64,000 nucleotides of DNA. Origin: Flagellimonas maritima. Its GTDB lineage: Bacteria; Bacteroidota; Bacteroidia; Flavobacteriales; Flavobacteriaceae. The position numbers and the translations under genes were made by a program. Positions 1 to 42,141 of this stretch are shown one piece after another; the first letter of the stretch is position 1, and each line of letters starts with the position of its first letter. Below the pieces are notes generated by a model that worked only from the letters and a program-made list of their open reading frames with translations, made no database searches and had not been told where the DNA came from. The stretch covers positions 3,195,001 to 3,259,000 of the forward strand of contig NZ_CP030104.1 of the NCBI RefSeq assembly GCF_003269425.1. The letters are read 5' to 3'.

Positions 1-203
1 GTATTGAGTTTGGCCTTTTCAAAGAATATCAGTTTACCGTTGGGTTTTGAGTGTGGGATATTTCCAGATGCTGTCAATTTGTACAGATAGCTTCTCGATA
101 TTCCGGTATAGTCACAGGTTTCTTCAAAGGTGAGTACTTCCTTATGGGCTGTTAAAAGCCGTTCTAAACGATCAAGTCGTTCAAGGATTAAAAAATTGTC
201 CAT
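1..203 (-). CDS. Excisionase-like helix-turn-helix protein (partial, C-terminus cut by window edge)
   Basis: The reverse strand reads an open frame from an ATG at 203 to the window edge, giving about 67 residues. It starts MDNFLILERLDRLERLL and continues with a compact MerR/excisionase-type winged helix (TFEETCDYTGISRSYLYKL, then SKPNGKLIFF). Small HTH_17 proteins of this kind are typical of Bacteroidota integrative elements, where they act in excision or regulate element genes. An AGGA-type ribosome site lies just before the start. The recombinase gene at 3386-4525 points the same way and supports a mobile-element role. The C-terminus lies outside the window, so completeness is unknown. The start and frame are clear; the exact role (excisionase or regulator) is inferred. 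Confidence 0.75.
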   Translation of the reverse strand, partial: MDNFLILERLDRLERLLTAHKEVLTFEETCDYTGISRSYLYKLTASGNIPHSKPNGKLIFFEKAKLN

Positions 204-389
204 TGGTTTCCTTTTTAGGGTTACGAAATGAACAAAAGCGCTTTTGTTTTCTTTTAAATAATTCTTGGGATAAAGGTAAAATAAAGGAAAGGGGGAAGCT
301 AGATTTTTTGATTTAAGTTATCCACAAAAAACTGATATACAATGACTTATGTTAAATGAATTCAAATGAAATCATATATAATTTGGAAA

Positions 390-419
390 TTTAGATTTGG
401 TTTCAAATGGCTTCAAATG
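390..419 (-). repeat. Three tandem 10-bp repeats upstream of the HTH gene
   Basis: Read on the minus strand, 410-419, 400-409 and 390-399 give CATTTGAAGC, CATTTGAAAC and CAAATCTAAA, in exact 10-bp register. Looser CAAATG copies occur nearby at 363-368 and, inverted, 423-428. The same 10-bp phased pattern appears in the opposite orientation at 4731-4760 next to the attachment site. A 10-bp period puts the copies on one face of the helix, as expected for a cooperatively bound protein such as the adjacent excisionase-like HTH protein. Binding is inferred. Confidence 0.55.
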
Positions 420-700
420 CTATCATTTGATTTTTGGCAAAAATCAAAGAATTTTGAGTTATCAACAATTTGAGATAGCTAAATACGAAAATGTTAGTTT
501 AAAAAAGGGTCGATTATATTGTTTTAGGAGCAGGCCATTACATAGTTGCTATTTGAAGAATGTTAACATGCATATGAAGGATGCTGTTCTATTATATTAA
601 AGGTTTGCTTCTTGAGACCAAAGAAATAAAGAAATTTTCTTTCTAGTCAATACCGATTAATATATCGACTTAATAGCAGGAGTCAAAATCTTTGAATAAA

Positions 701-734
701 CTTCACGAAATGAGCAAAACTCATTGCTGTGAAG
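701..734. repeat. Imperfect hairpin / inverted repeat
   Basis: CTTCAC at 701-706 pairs with GTGAAG at 729-734, and AATGAG at 709-714 pairs with CTCATT at 720-725, with a small internal bulge and a 5-nt loop. No T-run follows on the plus strand, so it does not look like an intrinsic terminator. It lies about 140 bp before the ABC permease gene. Its function is unknown. Confidence 0.45.
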
Positions 735-870
735 TTAGCTCGAGATTAATTTTATTCCTTGATATATGTTACTATAAAGGGATTTGTTATTTTTAATAAA
801 GAAGTATATAATTAATGTGAGTTATGCTACAAGCATTAATTATAGGATATTTTAAATTATTGAACATTCT

Positions 871-3168
871 ATGATACGTCATAATCTTAAACTTATAATC
901 AGGAATTTGTGGGCAAATAAAATATATACTTCTATTATTCTATTGAGCCTAGTAGTGGCTTTTGTATGTTGCAATATCCTCATATCATTTCTCGTTTATG
1001 AAACAAATACGGATAAATTTCATTCCAAGCAAGATAGGATATTCCAAGTATTCAGTAATGATCCATTTGGCGAAAGTGGCCGCATTCCCTATATACCCAA
1101 GTTTCTTTATGGCTATTTAACCAACAATTATCCAGAAATTGCCGATGTAAGTCAGATTGGAAATTTAGATAAAGCTTCAATTGAGGTTGAAAAAACCATT
1201 TTTAAAGATTTAAATATTTTGTTGGCCGATGAGTCATTCTTTTCAGTTTTTGATTTCCCTATTGGTCAAGGAAATAAAAGTGGGGGATTGTCACCTGGTA
1301 ATATTGTACTCACACAAGAAAAGGCTGCTATTTTATTTGGGGATTCGGAAGCGGTCGGTAAGTCTGTTTCTTTAATTACTCCCGATACTATCCAGCAAAT
1401 GACCGTTTCGGCTATTGCAAAAAAGTCGAACTCGAATAGTCATTTATCTTTTGATGCCTTAGTGCATCATTCCAATTTTGAAAATAGATGGAATGGCGGA
1501 CCCAGCTATGCTTTAATGACGAGCAATAGTTCTACGGAAGCCTTGCAAAGCAAGATCAAGGCAGATAGTATACGACCAGGATTACTTGGCCCTGGCAAAA
1601 TGGACTACTTCTTTGAGCCCTTAAGTAATTCTTATTTCACCGCTGAAAATAAAATGAAATACATGAAAACAAGAAACCCTACCTTTTTGAAGGTCGGGTA
1701 TATAGTTTGCGGCTTGATTCTCTTTATTGCAAGCTTTAATTTCATAAATCTATTCTTGCTTTTTTGGCAGGATAGAAGAAAGGAAATGGGTATTAAAAAA
1801 ACTCTTGGAATTACTCAAAAAGGATTGTTCTACTTCTCAATAGCAGAAGCAGGATTTTACATTATTACTAGTTTTTTATTATCGCTTATTATAACACTTC
1901 TAACAATTCCTGTATTCAATTCTGTTTTTGAGGCGAACCTATCACCAGAGTATTTGTTGAATATAGAGGTTGCTTCACATATAGCTTTAGTCATTCTTTT
2001 CTCGGCCGCCTTGATAGTAACATTTTCCGTATCCAAACAATGGAGGATGAAACCTGTCAATTTAATGAAAAACGAATCCTCCAAGGTTACCTTTAGTGGA
2101 TTTCTCTTCACTTTCCAGTTCATTATTTCAATTACACTAACAATATGCTCCATCTCGATTATTGAACAAATGAACTATATTGAGAATGCTCCGCTCGGTT
2201 TCAACCGAAATATTATTCAACTTGATACCCCCGACCCGAAATACTCGAAAGTTCTTCCTGTCCTCAAACAGAAAATTGGTCAGTTGCCAAATGTTAAAGG
2301 TGTAACCGTTAGTGGTGGAAACCCGATATCCGGAAATCGAATTGTGCGATATGAACTTGAAAATGAAAAGTATTATACACCCTTTTTATTTGGGGGTGAT
2401 AAAGATTTCATTGAAACGCTTAATTTAAATTTAATCGAAGGTAGTTTGCCTTCGGCAGTACATAACGGTAAACTTGTCAATCAAAAACTGATCCGTCAGT
2501 TTGACCTAAGTGATCCAATTGGAAAAAAAGTGCCCGGTACTGAGGATTTAATTGTTGGTGTTGTGGAAGATTTTACATGTGGTTCTTTTAAAGAGGAGAT
2601 TCCGCCAGTTATAATAGCTTACTATGAGGATGGACCTTCATTACTCATTGATTACCAAGGCACTAACTTAGGATTACTTCTTCCGGAAATTGAAACAAAA
2701 TGGAAAGAACTATTTCCAGATTATTTCTTTTCTTACAAAATTCTTGAAGAAGAACTCATGAAGAAGTATAAAGAGGACACATTTTTCTATAATATCATTG
2801 TGACTTTTGCAATTATAAGTATGATATTGGCAAGTTTCGGCTTGTTTGCTTTGTCATGGGCAGTTACTCAAAGTAGATCTAAAGAAATGGGAATTCGAAA
2901 AGTACTAGGAGCCTCGACAGGAGATATTGTGAACTTGTTGACTTACGCGTTTAGCAAACGTATACTCCTAGCTTTCATAATAGCAATCCCCATGGGCTAT
3001 TATTTGATGCATCAATGGCTTACACGTTTCGCAAACAGGATTGATCTCAGCATATGGATTTTTATTCTATCGGGCCTTATTGTAATTTTAATTTCTGTGT
3101 TGACTTTAAGTATGCAAACAATAAAAGCGACAAGAAAAAATCCAATCGAGGAAATAAGCACTGAGTAG
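871..3168 (+). CDS. ABC transporter permease, MacB/FtsX type (element cargo)
   Basis: This 765-residue inner-membrane protein has the usual Bacteroidota layout: an N-terminal membrane helix (about 20-45), a periplasmic MacB-like core domain, an FtsX block of helices (about 275-430), a second periplasmic domain and a C-terminal FtsX block (about 650-760). Both blocks carry the same signature after a helix, RRKEMGIKKTLG and RSKEMGIRKVLGAS, showing the internal duplication. Such permeases usually work with a LolD/MacB-like ATPase in mechanotransmission or export. No ATPase gene lies beside it here, so it must borrow one or have been carried alone. It sits between the HTH and recombinase genes and is therefore probably cargo of the integrated element. 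The family call is firm; the substrate is unknown. Confidence 0.85.
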   Translation: MIRHNLKLIIRNLWANKIYTSIILLSLVVAFVCCNILISFLVYETNTDKFHSKQDRIFQVFSNDPFGESGRIPYIPKFLYGYLTNNYPEIADVSQIGNLDKASIEVEKTIFKDLNILLADESFFSVFDFPIGQGNKSGGLSPGNIVLTQEKAAILFGDSEAVGKSVSLITPDTIQQMTVSAIAKKSNSNSHLSFDALVHHSNFENRWNGGPSYALMTSNSSTEALQSKIKADSIRPGLLGPGKMDYFFEPLSNSYFTAENKMKYMKTRNPTFLKVGYIVCGLILFIASFNFINLFLLFWQDRRKEMGIKKTLGITQKGLFYFSIAEAGFYIITSFLLSLIITLLTIPVFNSVFEANLSPEYLLNIEVASHIALVILFSAALIVTFSVSKQWRMKPVNLMKNESSKVTFSGFLFTFQFIISITLTICSISIIEQMNYIENAPLGFNRNIIQLDTPDPKYSKVLPVLKQKIGQLPNVKGVTVSGGNPISGNRIVRYELENEKYYTPFLFGGDKDFIETLNLNLIEGSLPSAVHNGKLVNQKLIRQFDLSDPIGKKVPGTEDLIVGVVEDFTCGSFKEEIPPVIIAYYEDGPSLLIDYQGTNLGLLLPEIETKWKELFPDYFFSYKILEEELMKKYKEDTFFYNIIVTFAIISMILASFGLFALSWAVTQSRSKEMGIRKVLGASTGDIVNLLTYAFSKRILLAFIIAIPMGYYLMHQWLTRFANRIDLSIWIFILSGLIVILISVLTLSMQTIKATRKNPIEEISTE

Positions 3169-3385
3169 AAATTGTTGTATCAACTAAAGGGCTTCGATTT
3201 TTTATTTTGTAACAATTTACGGTAAACAGTGCATTTTCTTCACGAATTCAAATAAAACGGCCATCTTGCAAGACTTATAGAAGTAGTATAACACATATTT
3301 ATCTCAGTCTCATTTTCCTCTTTTTTAATAGTTTAACAAAGTAACCTTTTATAAAATTCCATTAGACCCAAATTGGCTGGCTGCT

Positions 3386-4525
3386 TTAAACTGCAATGTT
3401 CATTTCTAATTCTGGGATCATGTTTGCCGCTGCTTTCATTTTTTCATCAATTATCTTGGTATAGATTTCTGTGGTTCGAATTTCCCGATGTCCTAATCTT
3501 TTGGACACCGTATAAATATCCGCTCCATTTTCTAACAGCAATACGGCGTTGGTATGCCTGGCACTATGGAAAGTAATATGTTTGGTTATTCCCGCCCGCA
3601 TGCACCAAGAAAGGATTTGAGCGTTGAAATGCGCACCATATTTAAGGCCTTTAAACACCTTGTCACTAGGGTTTTTTCGATAACCGAGTAATTTTCTTGC
3701 CTGTCCTGAAATATAGAGGTATTCCAATCCATCGGTTTTCTTCTGCCGGAAAATGACTCGTGCGCCTTGGTCTTCGTCCCTGACCTCAGACCATTTCAAT
3801 TTGGCGATGTCGCTCCATCGTAATCCAGTAAGGCAACTAAAGATAAAGGCACTTTTTAAAACAGGATATTTACAATGTGCATGGGACAACGCCTGTAATT
3901 CAGAATGGGTAAGATATTCCCGTACCGATTCCGCTTGCTCGAAACTTTTTACTGACTTAACAACATCCTGCAGGATAAAACTTTCGTTATAGGCCTCACG
4001 AAGTGCAGCCCTGAATTTATTGAAATAGGTGTATTTTGAATTCTGGGATAGGGGAGTACCTCCTTTGGTCATAGCTTTGGTATCCAAATATTTCTTGAAG
4101 TCTTTTACGAAATCGGAATCTATATCTTTCAATTGCACATGCTCTGGGCAGTATCTTTCGATATGTTTTAGAGCGGCATCCCAATTGCCATAGTTGGCAT
4201 TGCTTTCATAGCGCTCTTCTTTCATCTGGCGAAAGAAATCCAAAAAAGTGATTTGCCCTTTCTTTTCATTCCGCATGTTATATTTCCCCTTAATGAAATC
4301 TGACTGACGAATGGTAAGAATACTTTCTGCCAATTTCAATGCCTCTTTGTTCTTTCGTTGTTGTTCTGCATTTTGAGGTTTGTTATAGACGTATAGTTTC
4401 AAATATTCAAAACTCCTGACGTGCTTTTTCGTACCATTTTTGTCCTTTCGGCTTCCACCATAGTATTCGAGGTACAAACTGGACTTTCCACTTTTAAGTT
4501 TTTTCCGCTTTAGACTTATAATCAT
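3386..4525 (-). CDS. Tyrosine recombinase / integrase
   Basis: This 379-residue phage-type integrase has an N-terminal arm-binding domain (about 1-75, SLYLEYYGG), a SAM-like core-binding domain (about 90-190) and a C-terminal catalytic domain. The active-site set is visible: Arg236 (TGLRWSD), Lys263, His320 and Arg323 (HSARH), His346 (LGHREI) and Tyr355 (TEIYTKI). I start at 4525 because an AAGG site lies just before it and the residues then match the usual arm domain. The longer frame from 4576 would run over one of the five GTACACCT sites. The gene ends far from mnmE and its start faces the mnmE 3' end 241 bp away, the expected place for an integrase next to its attachment site. It appears intact. 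Confidence 0.92.
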   Translation of the reverse strand: MIISLKRKKLKSGKSSLYLEYYGGSRKDKNGTKKHVRSFEYLKLYVYNKPQNAEQQRKNKEALKLAESILTIRQSDFIKGKYNMRNEKKGQITFLDFFRQMKEERYESNANYGNWDAALKHIERYCPEHVQLKDIDSDFVKDFKKYLDTKAMTKGGTPLSQNSKYTYFNKFRAALREAYNESFILQDVVKSVKSFEQAESVREYLTHSELQALSHAHCKYPVLKSAFIFSCLTGLRWSDIAKLKWSEVRDEDQGARVIFRQKKTDGLEYLYISGQARKLLGYRKNPSDKVFKGLKYGAHFNAQILSWCMRAGITKHITFHSARHTNAVLLLENGADIYTVSKRLGHREIRTTEIYTKIIDEKMKAAANMIPELEMNIAV

Positions 4526-4543
4526 AACCTTAATTTTTAGATG

Positions 4544-4658
4544 AGTACACCTCGAAAAAAATCTCAAAGACAACAATTACAGTACCTGAGGTGAAATTGG
4601 TACACCTTTGGTACACCTTTTTGTTAAAATTGGGTTCGAGGTGTACTGGAGGTGTACT
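4544..4658. repeat. Cluster of five GTACACCT sites, probable integrase arm-type or operator sites
   Basis: GTACACCT occurs on the plus strand at 4545-4552, 4600-4607 and 4611-4618 and on the minus strand at 4639-4646 and 4650-4657. The middle pair is a perfect tandem 11-mer (TTGGTACACCT at 4597 and 4608). The right pair is a perfect GAGGTGTACT at 4638 and 4649, also 11 bp apart, and the left single copy is its exact reverse complement. All five lie between the integrase start and mnmE. Paired, oriented sites at one helical turn fit arm-type binding by integrase or a repressor of int. The pattern is directly visible; the binder is inferred. Confidence 0.7.
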
Positions 4659-4730
4659 AAAAGTATGAAAATGGGTAGAAAAAGGAAAATAAACGAGGAT
4701 AAAAATTTTTGTAACTATCTGATTTGCAAT

Positions 4731-4760
4731 CAAATGAAACCAAATGAGACCAAATAAAAC
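4731..4760 (+). repeat. Three tandem 10-bp repeats beside the attachment site
   Basis: CAAATGAAAC, CAAATGAGAC and CAAATAAAAC follow one another without gaps, ending 6 bp before the mnmE stop codon. They match the repeats at 390-419 in opposite orientation, sharing the string GAAACCAAAT. The position next to the crossover point suits a directionality factor or integrase accessory sites. Confidence 0.65.
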
Positions 4761-4766
4761 CAGCAG

Positions 4767-4784
4767 TTACTTCCCGATGCAAAA
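4767..4784 (-). other. Putative attachment site: last 18 bp of mnmE
   Basis: The coding strand of the mnmE 3' end reads TTTTGCATCGGGAAGTAA. From memory, the SGI1 attachment site in the 3' end of trmE/thdF is TTCTGTATTGGGAAGTAA, which would match at 15 of 18 positions. Both encode F-C-I-G-K-stop. Together with an adjacent integrase and phased repeats this marks the element-chromosome junction. The partner repeat at the other element end would lie left of this window; I did not find a second copy here. Confidence 0.65.
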
Positions 4785-6137
4785 ATTTGAGAATATATTT
4801 CCCAACAAATCGTCCGTAGTAACACTACCAGTAATCTCTCCCAAATGAAAAAGAGCCTGTCGAATATCGATGGCCATCAAATCACTGGCCAATCCTATTT
4901 CCATTCCTTCTTTTACTTTTTGTATTTCCTCAAGAGCTTTCAATAGAGCGTCATAATGTCTGCTATTGGAAATAATCGTACTATCACCCGTTAAAGAACC
5001 TGAATCCACTAAGGAAAGTAATTTATTTTCTAAATCATCTATGCCAACCCGATTTTTAGCCGAGAGAAAAATTGCATTTGGAAATTCTTTTTCCAAAGAA
5101 TCCAGCTGCGAATTTGTTAGCATATCGATTTTATTACAAATTGGTAAGATTTCCTTTTTTGGGTAGTTTGTTTCTATTCGTTTCAGTTCAGACCGGTCAA
5201 AATCAATAGTATCAAAAAGAAAAATAATAAGTCTTGCCGTCTCAATTTTACCGAAAGTTCGTTTGATTCCTATTTGCTCAACTACATCTTCTGTTTCTCG
5301 AATCCCTGCAGTATCGATAAACCTAAAATTTATTCCATTAAGGGTAATTTGGTCTTCAACCGTATCTCTGGTGGTACCTGCAATATCGCTCACTATGGCC
5401 CTTTCTTCATTCAATAGAACATTTAGCAGGGTTGACTTACCAACATTTGGCTGTCCAACAATGGCCACAGGAATACCATTCTTAATAACATTACCAAGGG
5501 TGAAGGAGTCGATAAGTTTTTTTAGGACTTCACTGATACGGTTTAACAATGCATTAAATTGGCTACGATTTGCAAATTCAACATCCTCTTGGGAAAAATC
5601 CAATTCCAGCTCAATAAGCGAAGCGAAATTCAGTAGTTCTTCACGTAATTTTTGAATTTCATTGCTAAAACCACCCCGCATTTGTTGCATGGCTATTTCG
5701 TGGGCGGCTTCACTATTGCTGGCTATTAAATCTGCTACAGCTTCTGCCTGACTTAGGTCCATTTTTCCGTTTAGGAAAGCCCGTAGCGTAAATTCACCCG
5801 CGGAGGCGGTCCTACAGCCCTTTCTCAAAAACAGTTGAATAATTTGTTGTTGAATGTATGGCGAACCATGGCAGGAAATTTCAATGACGTCTTCTCCAGT
5901 ATAAGAGTGCGGCCCTCTAAATAAAGAAATCAGTACCTTATCCAAAATTCTGCCATTTTCGGTAATGTGTCCCAAATGGATGCTGTGGCTCTTCTGATCA
6001 GATAATTTTTTATTTTTAATGGACTTAAAGACCGTATCCGAAATACTTATGGAACTAGGTCCTGAAACCCGAATAACCGCTATTGCCCCTGTTCCTGAAG
6101 GTGTTGCTAAAGCTATGATCGTTTCTGTATTGGACAT
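4767..6137 (-). CDS. mnmE: tRNA uridine-5-carboxymethylaminomethyl(34) synthesis GTPase MnmE
   Basis: MnmE works with MnmG to modify the wobble uridine of several tRNAs. The 456-residue protein has the N-terminal folate-binding domain (about 1-120), a helical domain split by a G domain, with P-loop GQPNVGKS at about 228-235, DTAGI (G3) and NKID (G4), and the invariant C-terminal CIGK whose Cys is needed for catalysis. I start at 6137 (MSNTETIIAL), matching the family; a longer frame to 6221 adds 28 unrelated residues. A TAnnTTTG box only 5 nt before this start suggests a very short leader. The 3' end doubles as the probable integration target of the neighbouring element and is still intact. 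Confidence 0.96.
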   Translation of the reverse strand: MSNTETIIALATPSGTGAIAVIRVSGPSSISISDTVFKSIKNKKLSDQKSHSIHLGHITENGRILDKVLISLFRGPHSYTGEDVIEISCHGSPYIQQQIIQLFLRKGCRTASAGEFTLRAFLNGKMDLSQAEAVADLIASNSEAAHEIAMQQMRGGFSNEIQKLREELLNFASLIELELDFSQEDVEFANRSQFNALLNRISEVLKKLIDSFTLGNVIKNGIPVAIVGQPNVGKSTLLNVLLNEERAIVSDIAGTTRDTVEDQITLNGINFRFIDTAGIRETEDVVEQIGIKRTFGKIETARLIIFLFDTIDFDRSELKRIETNYPKKEILPICNKIDMLTNSQLDSLEKEFPNAIFLSAKNRVGIDDLENKLLSLVDSGSLTGDSTIISNSRHYDALLKALEEIQKVKEGMEIGLASDLMAIDIRQALFHLGEITGSVTTDDLLGNIFSNFCIGK

Positions 6138-40713: not shown

Positions 40714-42141
40714 TTAATTTTCTCCAATCGGTGGTGGTCCATCGATCATGGCTTCGTATTTTTCGTCCCCTTTACGGGTCTTGTATTCTTCTTTTACCTT
40801 CTCAACCAACTTTGGATTTTCAAAAAGATCTGCCATGGTCATTGCCATAGCTTTAGAAGCATAGACCATTCCTTTGTGACCGATACTCATACCTCCACAA
40901 GCAACAACGGCCCATGAGTGCCAAGGCGTGTCTTTTGGTGCAACAGTCACGCCCAAATTGATATTGGGCACGTTCCAACTTACATCACCAACATCGGTAG
41001 AGCCTCCCCCAGGGTTCTCTTCCGTATCCCGTAACGGTTCAATTTTACTGTCCATTCCAATTTCTGGCTTTCCCGTCGCTTTTTGAATCGCCTTTCCAAA
41101 AGCGGTTTCCTCGTCCGTGTAGGAGATTGGACCCAACAATTCGAGATTATTTTGCATGATTTCACCCCCTGAACGATTCACCAATGTTTCATAAATTCCT
41201 GAAACCAATGATATTTTATAATCCACATTGGCCATAATAGCTGCACCTTCGGCCATTTTTTTGACCTGCTCATAAGTTGGCAGCATAATTTTTCTTTTTG
41301 GATCTCGTACCCGTACCCAAATTTTAGAATAGTCCGGTACTACATTGACAACTTGGCCTCCATCCTGAATATGGTAATGGATACGCGAAGTAGGCCTTAT
41401 ATGTTCTCTATAGTAGTTGATGCCGGTGGTATAAAGTTCCAATGCATCAGACGCACTGCGACCGTTCCAAGGGTCAGCAGAAGCATGGGCCGCTTGTCCT
41501 GTAAACTCCACTATAAAATCTATCAAAGAAAGACCACTCTGTACGTCTGCTTCTATTTTGGAACTTGGATGCCAGCTAACATTAACATCTACATCATCCC
41601 AAAGACCAGCTTCTACCATCCAAACTTTTGCAAAATATTTTTCCTCGGCAGGTGTACCTAAAAATTTAACCGTCCCCTTCAATTTTCCTGCTTCAATCTG
41701 TTCCTTGATTGCGATGGCAGCTCCCAAACTGGCAGCACCGAACATATTATGGCCACATCCATGCCCTGGGGCACCATCAATTCTTGGATTTTTGGTTGGG
41801 ACCGTGTTTTGTGAAAGGCCTGGCAGGGCATCAAATTCCCCTAGAACGCTGATTACCGGTTTCCCAGAACCGTAAGTGGCGGTAAATGCCGTAGGAATAT
41901 TTGCCACACCCCTGGTAACATTGAGACCATTTTTTTCCGCATAACTGGCCAAAACCTCTGCCGATTTAGATTCGTTGAACGCGGTTTCTGCAAAGGTCCA
42001 AATAGAGTCACTTATTTTAATAAGATTCTCTTTATGGTTTTCTACTGATGCAATGACTCCTTTTTTGCTATTGCTCATTTTCTGGGCCGATATGCCACAT
42101 ATGGTTAGTGAAGTCAGTAATAATAATACGATTTTCCTCAT
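40714..42141 (-). CDS. M20 family amidohydrolase (AbgB-like), exported
   Basis: The 475-residue protein has a signal peptide (KIVLLLLTSLTICGISAQ) and then the M20 metallo-hydrolase core: VISVLGEFDALPGL, GAPGHGCGHNMFGAASLGAA and GTPAEE, with a dimerisation domain and a C-terminal GGGSTDVGDVSW metal-binding region. It resembles aminobenzoyl-glutamate utilisation protein B. The substrate is probably an N-acyl amino acid or peptide. It stands alone. Confidence 0.92.
   Translation of the reverse strand: MRKIVLLLLTSLTICGISAQKMSNSKKGVIASVENHKENLIKISDSIWTFAETAFNESKSAEVLASYAEKNGLNVTRGVANIPTAFTATYGSGKPVISVLGEFDALPGLSQNTVPTKNPRIDGAPGHGCGHNMFGAASLGAAIAIKEQIEAGKLKGTVKFLGTPAEEKYFAKVWMVEAGLWDDVDVNVSWHPSSKIEADVQSGLSLIDFIVEFTGQAAHASADPWNGRSASDALELYTTGINYYREHIRPTSRIHYHIQDGGQVVNVVPDYSKIWVRVRDPKRKIMLPTYEQVKKMAEGAAIMANVDYKISLVSGIYETLVNRSGGEIMQNNLELLGPISYTDEETAFGKAIQKATGKPEIGMDSKIEPLRDTEENPGGGSTDVGDVSWNVPNINLGVTVAPKDTPWHSWAVVACGGMSIGHKGMVYASKAMAMTMADLFENPKLVEKVKEEYKTRKGDEKYEAMIDGPPPIGEN

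Follow-up and report, generated by a model that had tools for sequence, protein, structure and literature searches.

Does the tyrosine recombinase gene that starts 241 bp behind the stop codon of mnmE in Flagellimonas maritima, on the same strand, belong to an element inserted into the 3' end of that gene, the target of SGI1-type islands, and if so, how has mnmE been kept intact? The window analysed here, the whole 64-kb stretch G000:C1:3195001-3259000 of a one-contig 3.77-Mb genome (NZ_CP030104.1), carries, as an earlier note on it had claimed, an intact tyrosine recombinase gene facing the 3' end of mnmE, its start and not its end being turned toward the target, and the last 18 bp of mnmE read as stated there, TTTTGCATCGGGAAGTAA (Table 1). 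The note had inferred an element in the 3' end of mnmE, at the same target as SGI1, and this is supported by a distal core copy and by a patchy gene order in relatives: with a probability of about 0.93, an integrative and probably mobilizable element of 16.5 kb, here element A, has one of its ends in this region. At the level of sequence this reading is carried by the repeat, the motifs, the gene content and a relic of an older element, and by the patchy distribution, two relatives with empty-site synteny, the association of the integrase family with mnmE and the movement of the integrase from host to host.

Table 1. Element A, its target gene and related sites; positions refer to the window unless a genome or locus is named.
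Feature	Position	Strand	Basis
Element A, right-hand 4.8 kb in the window; remaining 11.7 kb left of the window, to G000:C1:3183286	1-4766		two core copies
Excisionase-like helix-turn-helix gene, 95 aa, crossing the left window edge	1-203 (G000:C1:3194916-3195203)	-	NCBIfam TIGR01764 'excise', E 1.3e-10, 41.5 bits vs cut-off 28.8
MacB/FtsX-type permease	871-3168	+	PF02687, PF12704; NCBIfam ADOP and DarB below cut-off
Tyrosine recombinase (integrase), 379 aa, intact	3386-4525	-	PF00589 Phage_integrase, PF13102 SAM-like_5, PF17293 Arm-DNA-bind_5
Five RGGTGTACY copies between integrase and core, presumed arm-type sites	4544-4658 (starts 4544, 4599, 4610, 4639, 4650)		motif search
16-bp repeat TGCATCGGGAAGTAAC, common to the distal copy G000:C1:3183270-3183285	4766-4781	-	exact matching
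mnmE (trmE/thdF), intact target gene	4767-6137	-	PF12631 E 3.1e-55, PF10396 E 2.4e-42
Last 18 bp of mnmE, codons F-C-I-G-K-stop, integrase-proximal junction	4767-4784	-	sequence, read from 4784 to 4767
Two far-end RGGTGTACY copies, 11 bp apart, about 40 bp inside the distal core	G000:C1:3183327, 3183338		motif search
TFCIGK-stop cores on viral-class contigs	L300:7801, L301:4668, L306:4897, L308:4216, L295:119		

A second copy of the core, which the earlier note had proposed to seek to the left, was found 16,496 bp away, with a common stretch of 15 bases, or 16 if the next, flanking base is counted. The 14-base core GCATCGGGAAGTAA has two exact matches in the 3.77-Mb genome, at the mnmE end and at C1:3183271-3183284 on the same strand; with up to one mismatch it occurs at three places, the third of which (C1:2293172) was taken as chance. 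Chance was likewise assumed for G000:C1:3145169, a site with four mismatches on the opposite strand and the sole core-like one (up to four mismatches) in the 88 kb further left. The ends are also marked by the AGGTGTAC motifs, which at the near end include two pairs 11 bp apart. RGGTGTACY matches six times in the window, the sixth at 41650, against 0.76 expected, a number reached by none of 100 shuffles, and twice in the 20 kb left of the window against 0.21 expected (two matches in 5 of 200 shuffles), where nothing beyond the far-end pair was found. The motifs at both ends are likely arm-type integrase sites, which would mark the extremities of the element independently of the core. The two exact copies genome-wide and the motifs at both ends rule out a chance repeat, and they also speak against the view that the integrase was inherited along with mnmE as a resident gene and that the core repeat is a coincidence, a view taken up below with the distribution of the gene.

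With an integrase gene and direct repeats at both extremities, element A has the makings of an integrative element. Its near and far ends further have six 9-mers in common, while 66 internal windows gave a mean of 0.41 and a maximum of 2. Among 13 other candidate elements, ten show 9-mers common to both ends and three (G308, G021, G071) none; in four of them (G309, G314, G175, G121) the count is above that of every internal control window. G+C content does not mark element A (0.354 vs 0.374 right of the element and 0.354 in the 80 kb further left). At the far end (G000:C1:3183271-3183310, about L008:8271-8310, L008 being the sequence left of the window), an inverted CCCGATGC is located some 20 bp inward of the distal GCATCGGG core, the pair forming an 8-bp perfect inverted repeat.

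The distal core is followed by an arm region similar to element A's and by fragments of a related integrase in the same orientation, one corresponding to residues 331-379 at 78% identity and one to residues 158-216 at 59% with two stops. The most likely reading of these remains is that element A inserted between mnmE and an earlier, since-decayed element. The genes beyond the relic have no match in any of eight integrase-free congeners.

In an alignment of the integrase with 17 relatives, R236, K263, H320, R323, H346 and Y355, which we take to be its catalytic residues, are invariant in all 18 rows (row L031 being out of frame in its first part). Leftward from mnmE the integrase is followed by the permease, probably cargo, the excisionase-like gene, a Toprim/CHC2 primase, a NikA-like mobilization protein (Pfam, E 3.8e-20) and a MobA/VirD2 relaxase (E 4e-31), and then by a 151-aa ORF without NCBIfam family, Drt3b, Drt3a, a DUF2779 protein, AbiEii/AbiEi, a ParD-like antitoxin and an HTH_3 regulator. 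The adjacent reverse transcriptases that define DRT type 3 are both present (PADLOC, Drt3a E 2.8e-112, Drt3b E 2.6e-201), their ORFs abutting at L008:14971/14972. Together with the neighbouring AbiEi/AbiEii and DUF2779 genes they make up a compact defence load (L008:13643-17011, G000:C1:3188643-3192011). No mating-pore gene was found among those proteins of element A that were scanned. By its content element A looks like a mobilizable island with a defence load, and its own relaxase without a pore gene among the proteins scanned is the canonical arrangement of integrative and mobilizable elements (IMEs) of Bacteroidota. NBU elements carry an integrase, an excisionase-like gene and a primase as element A does. 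NBU1 integrates in a tRNA gene, whereas the target of element A is a protein-coding gene. NBU1/NBU2-type IMEs of Bacteroidota resemble it in having their own relaxase without a mating pore (class in PMC5704250). In eleven other candidate elements, 140 ORFs compared with Pfam included ten Phage_integrase, six Relaxase and six Toprim_2 matches, and parts of type I restriction-modification systems, with three ORFs each, were among the top-matched PADLOC families (25 of 281 families listed).

Relatives of the integrase also occur on viral-class contigs, and element A might accordingly be thought a prophage or phage satellite rather than a conjugatively mobilized island. Five of the 80 such contigs kept have an attP-like order, in which TFCIGK-stop stands shortly before a related integrase without MnmE coding upstream (Table 1); L300 and L301 look alike near the core, and two further contigs show an MnmE end before the integrase. 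The relaxase, its NikA-like partner and the primase point the other way, and no phage structural protein was found among the ten proteins scanned with Pfam and the permease, which makes a phage origin quite unlikely. From their order, the five viral-class cores are likely attP sites of excised or tandem elements.

How far the integrase family is bound to mnmE was read from loci at increasing distance. At E 1e-60 or better, a relative of the integrase is present in 56 of the 299 genomes examined for the bacterial family, with 58 matches in all (its own, 29 fetched loci, 27 further ones and one at a contig edge, G041, which was left out). In all 29 fetched loci and in 20 of the 27 further ones, mnmE lies upstream in the same orientation at a distance of no more than about 1.2 kb. 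The seven misses are a short contig and six loci with 38.7-43.9% identity; among the 20 at mnmE, four have identities as low as these or lower (33.8-42.6%). In the phylum, 30 of 395 genomes reach E 1e-55 or better. Of the 29 loci other than the own one, 17 have mnmE up to 1.4 kb upstream, and L200, which is among the misses, is the same place as L160 of the family survey. For named genomes, 74 of the best 80 of at least 578 relatives stand 0.2-1.2 kb behind mnmE, and the six misses are four contig ends and two real ones (L230, L267). These best 80 of at least 578 are all from Bacteroidota, judged by genome names, their carriers including Flavobacteriaceae, Chryseobacterium, Elizabethkingia, Dysgonomonas, Sphingobacterium, Algoriphagus, Fulvivirga and others. 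Relatives at 45% identity or less are mixed, some at mnmE and some elsewhere. The integrase family is thus largely tied to mnmE. The groups away from mnmE indicate that the choice of target or neighbour has changed within the family, and ARAGORN found no tRNA in 30 loci, which were mostly, not all, loci with the integrase away from mnmE. Six related integrases (37-40% identity; L160, L200, L201, L202, L203, L205, the first two from one genome) stand behind a gene ending VEFEEVK or similar, in most of them with a gene of about 200 aa in between; from its last letters, read by eye, the former gene would be dnaK. Four others (L186, L187, L189, L190) stand beside a divergent gene with SDHLPLLL near its end.

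The integrase indeed stands behind mnmE in nearly all of its own close relatives, as a resident gene would. Within the genus, on the other hand, gene order is not common to all, a comparison that the earlier note had also proposed: among 23 genomes with a readable mnmE 3' end, the own one included, seven carry the integrase within 1.5 kb behind mnmE and 16 lack it there, and eight of these 16, read for 20 kb behind mnmE, contain no integrase. FastTree trees of integrase and MnmE, built from 90 loci (91 selected, one short locus dropped), have 11 of 87 splits in common, and of the 51 integrase splits with good support, 40 are contradicted by a MnmE split that is itself well supported. Patchiness and tree conflict rule out vertical inheritance of the integrase with mnmE, and with them the resident-gene view is refuted for the family as a whole and for the present locus has next to no probability left, while a vertically inherited sub-clade could still exist.

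Movement between hosts can be read directly from single pairs. The integrases of L038 and L039 are 100% identical over 1005 nt while their mnmE genes are 72.5% identical, and those of Soonwooa buanensis and Chryseobacterium echinoideorum are 99.1% identical with mnmE at 71.7% over 374 aligned nt. Of 1469 pairs that could be compared, only 705, about half, have a higher identity in the integrase than in mnmE, and in 126 the difference is above 10 points. The MnmE proteins of the nearest named genomes among the fetched loci, Flagellimonas pelagia and [Muricauda] okinawensis, are 80% identical to that encoded in the window. Such sequence comparisons show that the integrase has moved between hosts.

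Empty sites are seen through the patchiness in the genus and through two other carriers, not through the element of the window itself. In G302, a run of four genes that starts 84 bp beyond the distal core corresponds, at about 64-84% identity, to the run starting 51 bp after mnmE in the integrase-free congener G320. In G308, what follows the distal core is located 1-2 kb past mnmE in G315, which lacks the integrase, and most of these genes are 85-97% identical. For G309 and G314, the genes in common with G316, likewise without the integrase, lie farther away, and ten of the 14 carriers with a usable candidate copy, the window's own included, have no ordered match in eight integrase-free congeners. 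Within the 6.6 to 65 kb read downstream, a distal copy of the carrier's own last 15 mnmE bases occurs with up to two mismatches in 15 of 29 carriers and with up to one in 9 of 29. Control 15-mers from the same mnmE genes reached two mismatches or fewer in 79 of 580 trials and one or fewer in 5 of 580, one control being exact; the reversed core gave one match in 37 sequences, and one of eight integrase-free congeners (G299) has a copy with up to two mismatches. Since the controls reach it in only 5 of 580 trials, the copies with no or one mismatch are significant as a set. Copies with two mismatches and no further evidence are weak candidates; those of G302 and G308 are of this kind but have the evidence of their flanks. 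The copy in G094 is probably chance, and a 10-base agreement between the distal flank of G177 and integrase-free G229 was given no weight, the two being from different genera.

Where within the last codons the strands are exchanged was approached by comparing loci whose element ends are alike (at least 80% over 100 bp) and whose mnmE genes differ (below 80% over 300 bp), which gave 113 pairs from 50 loci that are not independent. In these pairs, wobble mismatch at core positions 3/6/9/12/15/18 is 0.52/0.06/0.37/0.04/0.03/0.00, as against 0.49/0.31/0.36/0.64/0.50/0.30 when all 9730 pairs among 140 carriers are taken. Position 9 follows the host and positions 12 to 18 follow the element, which indicates that the element brings the last nine bases, Gly-Lys-stop. 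This rests on family-wide statistics, the two cores of the window's own element being identical over 15 bp, and by the same wobble pattern the final 9 bp of mnmE in the window (4775-4767) would stem from the element. Variation at position 6 is lower than would be expected of unconstrained host sequence, perhaps because of a requirement of the integrase. In sixteen integrase-free genomes of the genus the values are 0.53/0.53/0.12/0.72/0.50/0.23, position 9 there being little variable. A crossover after position 12, as looser pairs might suggest (0.32/0.24/0.04/0.01 at 9/12/15/18), was dropped, as closer element ends put the step between 9 and 12; core-copy differences within one genome fit any crossover position and were given no evidential role.

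Taken as a mechanism, the integrase would recombine the attP of a circle, which would carry a copy of the mnmE tail and read far end, TGCATCGGGAAGTAA, integrase end, with the mnmE tail of the host. Strand exchange would fall amid the FCIGK codons, host DNA being kept to about the Ile codon, the nine Gly-Lys-stop bases of mnmE would arrive with the element, and the displaced original tail would come to lie at the far junction. Because the element would supply these nine bases, the MnmE protein would be left unchanged, which may explain why such islands are harmless to a conserved gene. Excision, formation of the circle, mobilization by a helper element and activity of the copy in this genome are inferred.

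SGI1 uses the last 18 bp of trmE/mnmE as its target (PMC2297512, PMC2972765, PMC9035990), with an mnmE-side repeat that is island-derived and identical in the compared serovars and a distal repeat that is the host's own tail (same sources). Element A likewise sits in these last 18 bp. The two appear alike in int and xis lying by the mnmE-side repeat, in direct repeats that are imperfect, and in the replacement of the mnmE tail by the last 9 bp from attP (PMC9035990). In S. Typhimurium, strand exchange of SGI1 is placed upstream of position 9 (PMC2297512), whereas in the Bacteroidota elements position 9 still tracks the host. They differ in phylum, in cargo, which is phage defence here, and in mobilization, a MobA/VirD2 relaxase here and SGI1's own module there. 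The arm domain of the integrase would presumably differ as well, SGI1 Int being of the DUF4102 arm type. General family scans, not a directed search, named no protein of the SGI1 backbone (rep, sgaDC, tra) among the element proteins, and a published SGI1 int primer has no match in the viral contigs. By relaxase type, cargo and probably integrase domain make-up, element A is not a relative of SGI1 as far as its content was scanned.

The earlier note had counted 15 of 18 bases in common with the SGI1 attB, which is right for the letters quoted there; the full 18 letters have no match in the one paper searched for them. Any two mnmE ends from the 140 carriers differ on average by 2.6 over the six wobble positions counted and thus share about 15.4 of 18, so that this likeness is at the level given by protein constraint alone. 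Published pieces of the SGI1 site are the end of its attP, GGGAAGTAA (PMC9035990), and a T at position 9 (PMC2297512).

Of the note's further statement, that a quite different integrase has come to use mnmE convergently, the first part stands by the domain make-up and by the best relatives, and convergence is likely, not proven. It may instead be that a single ancestor specific for mnmE gave rise both to the Bacteroidota integrases at this gene and to those of SGI1-type islands, the target being inherited: the gene and its end are the same, the integrase lies beside the mnmE side in both, the crossover position is almost the same, and in SGI1 too the copy on the mnmE side receives its last 9 bp from the island (PMC9035990). 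The Arm-DNA-bind_5/SAM_5 make-up of the integrase here, the confinement of the best 80 of at least 578 relatives in named genomes to Bacteroidota, and the other family groups off mnmE, with six loci by the presumed dnaK, by which target choice has changed, argue against such an ancestor and leave it improbable. On balance, independent evolution in two phyla of integrases for the five last codons of mnmE, with a near-identical cut and a synonymous Gly-Lys-stop tail repaid, is the reading we would favour, if with some reserve.

The 3' end of mnmE is described as an island hot spot with tandem arrays in a survey that covered alpha-, beta- and gammaproteobacteria (PMC9035990), and MGIVchHai6 of Vibrio cholerae, GIPmi1, GIPvu1 and GIPvu2 are islands at the 3' end of trmE (PMC5704250, PMC9035990); these are gammaproteobacterial and are likened to element A by target, not by integrase. 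While mnmE was thus already known as a hot spot in gammaproteobacteria, Bacteroidota are served by an integrase family of their own. No description of mnmE as an integration target in Bacteroidota was found in the open-licence literature searched, and element A, as a genomic island at a hot-spot gene, is of a familiar kind, here met in a phylum for which that literature yielded none. The 10K island of Riemerella anatipestifer, also of Bacteroidota, has a tyrosine integrase shown to integrate and excise, its site being 53 bp in an Arg-tRNA gene (PMC6764341). The dusA-specific integrases likewise form a family tied to one tRNA-modification gene across many species, in their case to the 5' end, and mnmE is mentioned there once, as the target of SGI1 (PMC4482086).

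The mnmE end is a defined place to seek mobile defence cargo in Bacteroidota, and it comes with an integrase whose site, being under protein constraint, occurs in many hosts. If the independent origin holds, mobile islands would find in mnmE a docking site that is nearly universal, owing to the constancy of FCIGK, and the integrase would have moved freely between genera, families and orders of Bacteroidota because its site is the same everywhere.

Two minor observations concern other sequences at the mnmE end. Four E. coli genomes with half coverage at mnmE (L207-L210) have no annotated integrase there and carry one extra annotated effector-type gene between mnmE and tnaC. In the integrase-free congener G299 (L090), the first approximately 790 bases behind mnmE hold a 786-bp cassette with two small ORFs that by eye resemble a toxin-antitoxin pair, bounded by a second mnmE tail long enough for LGNIFSNFCIGK-stop, and G303 (L091) has the cassette without a second tail; the cassette of G299 may be either a different mode of docking at the mnmE end or a decayed element.
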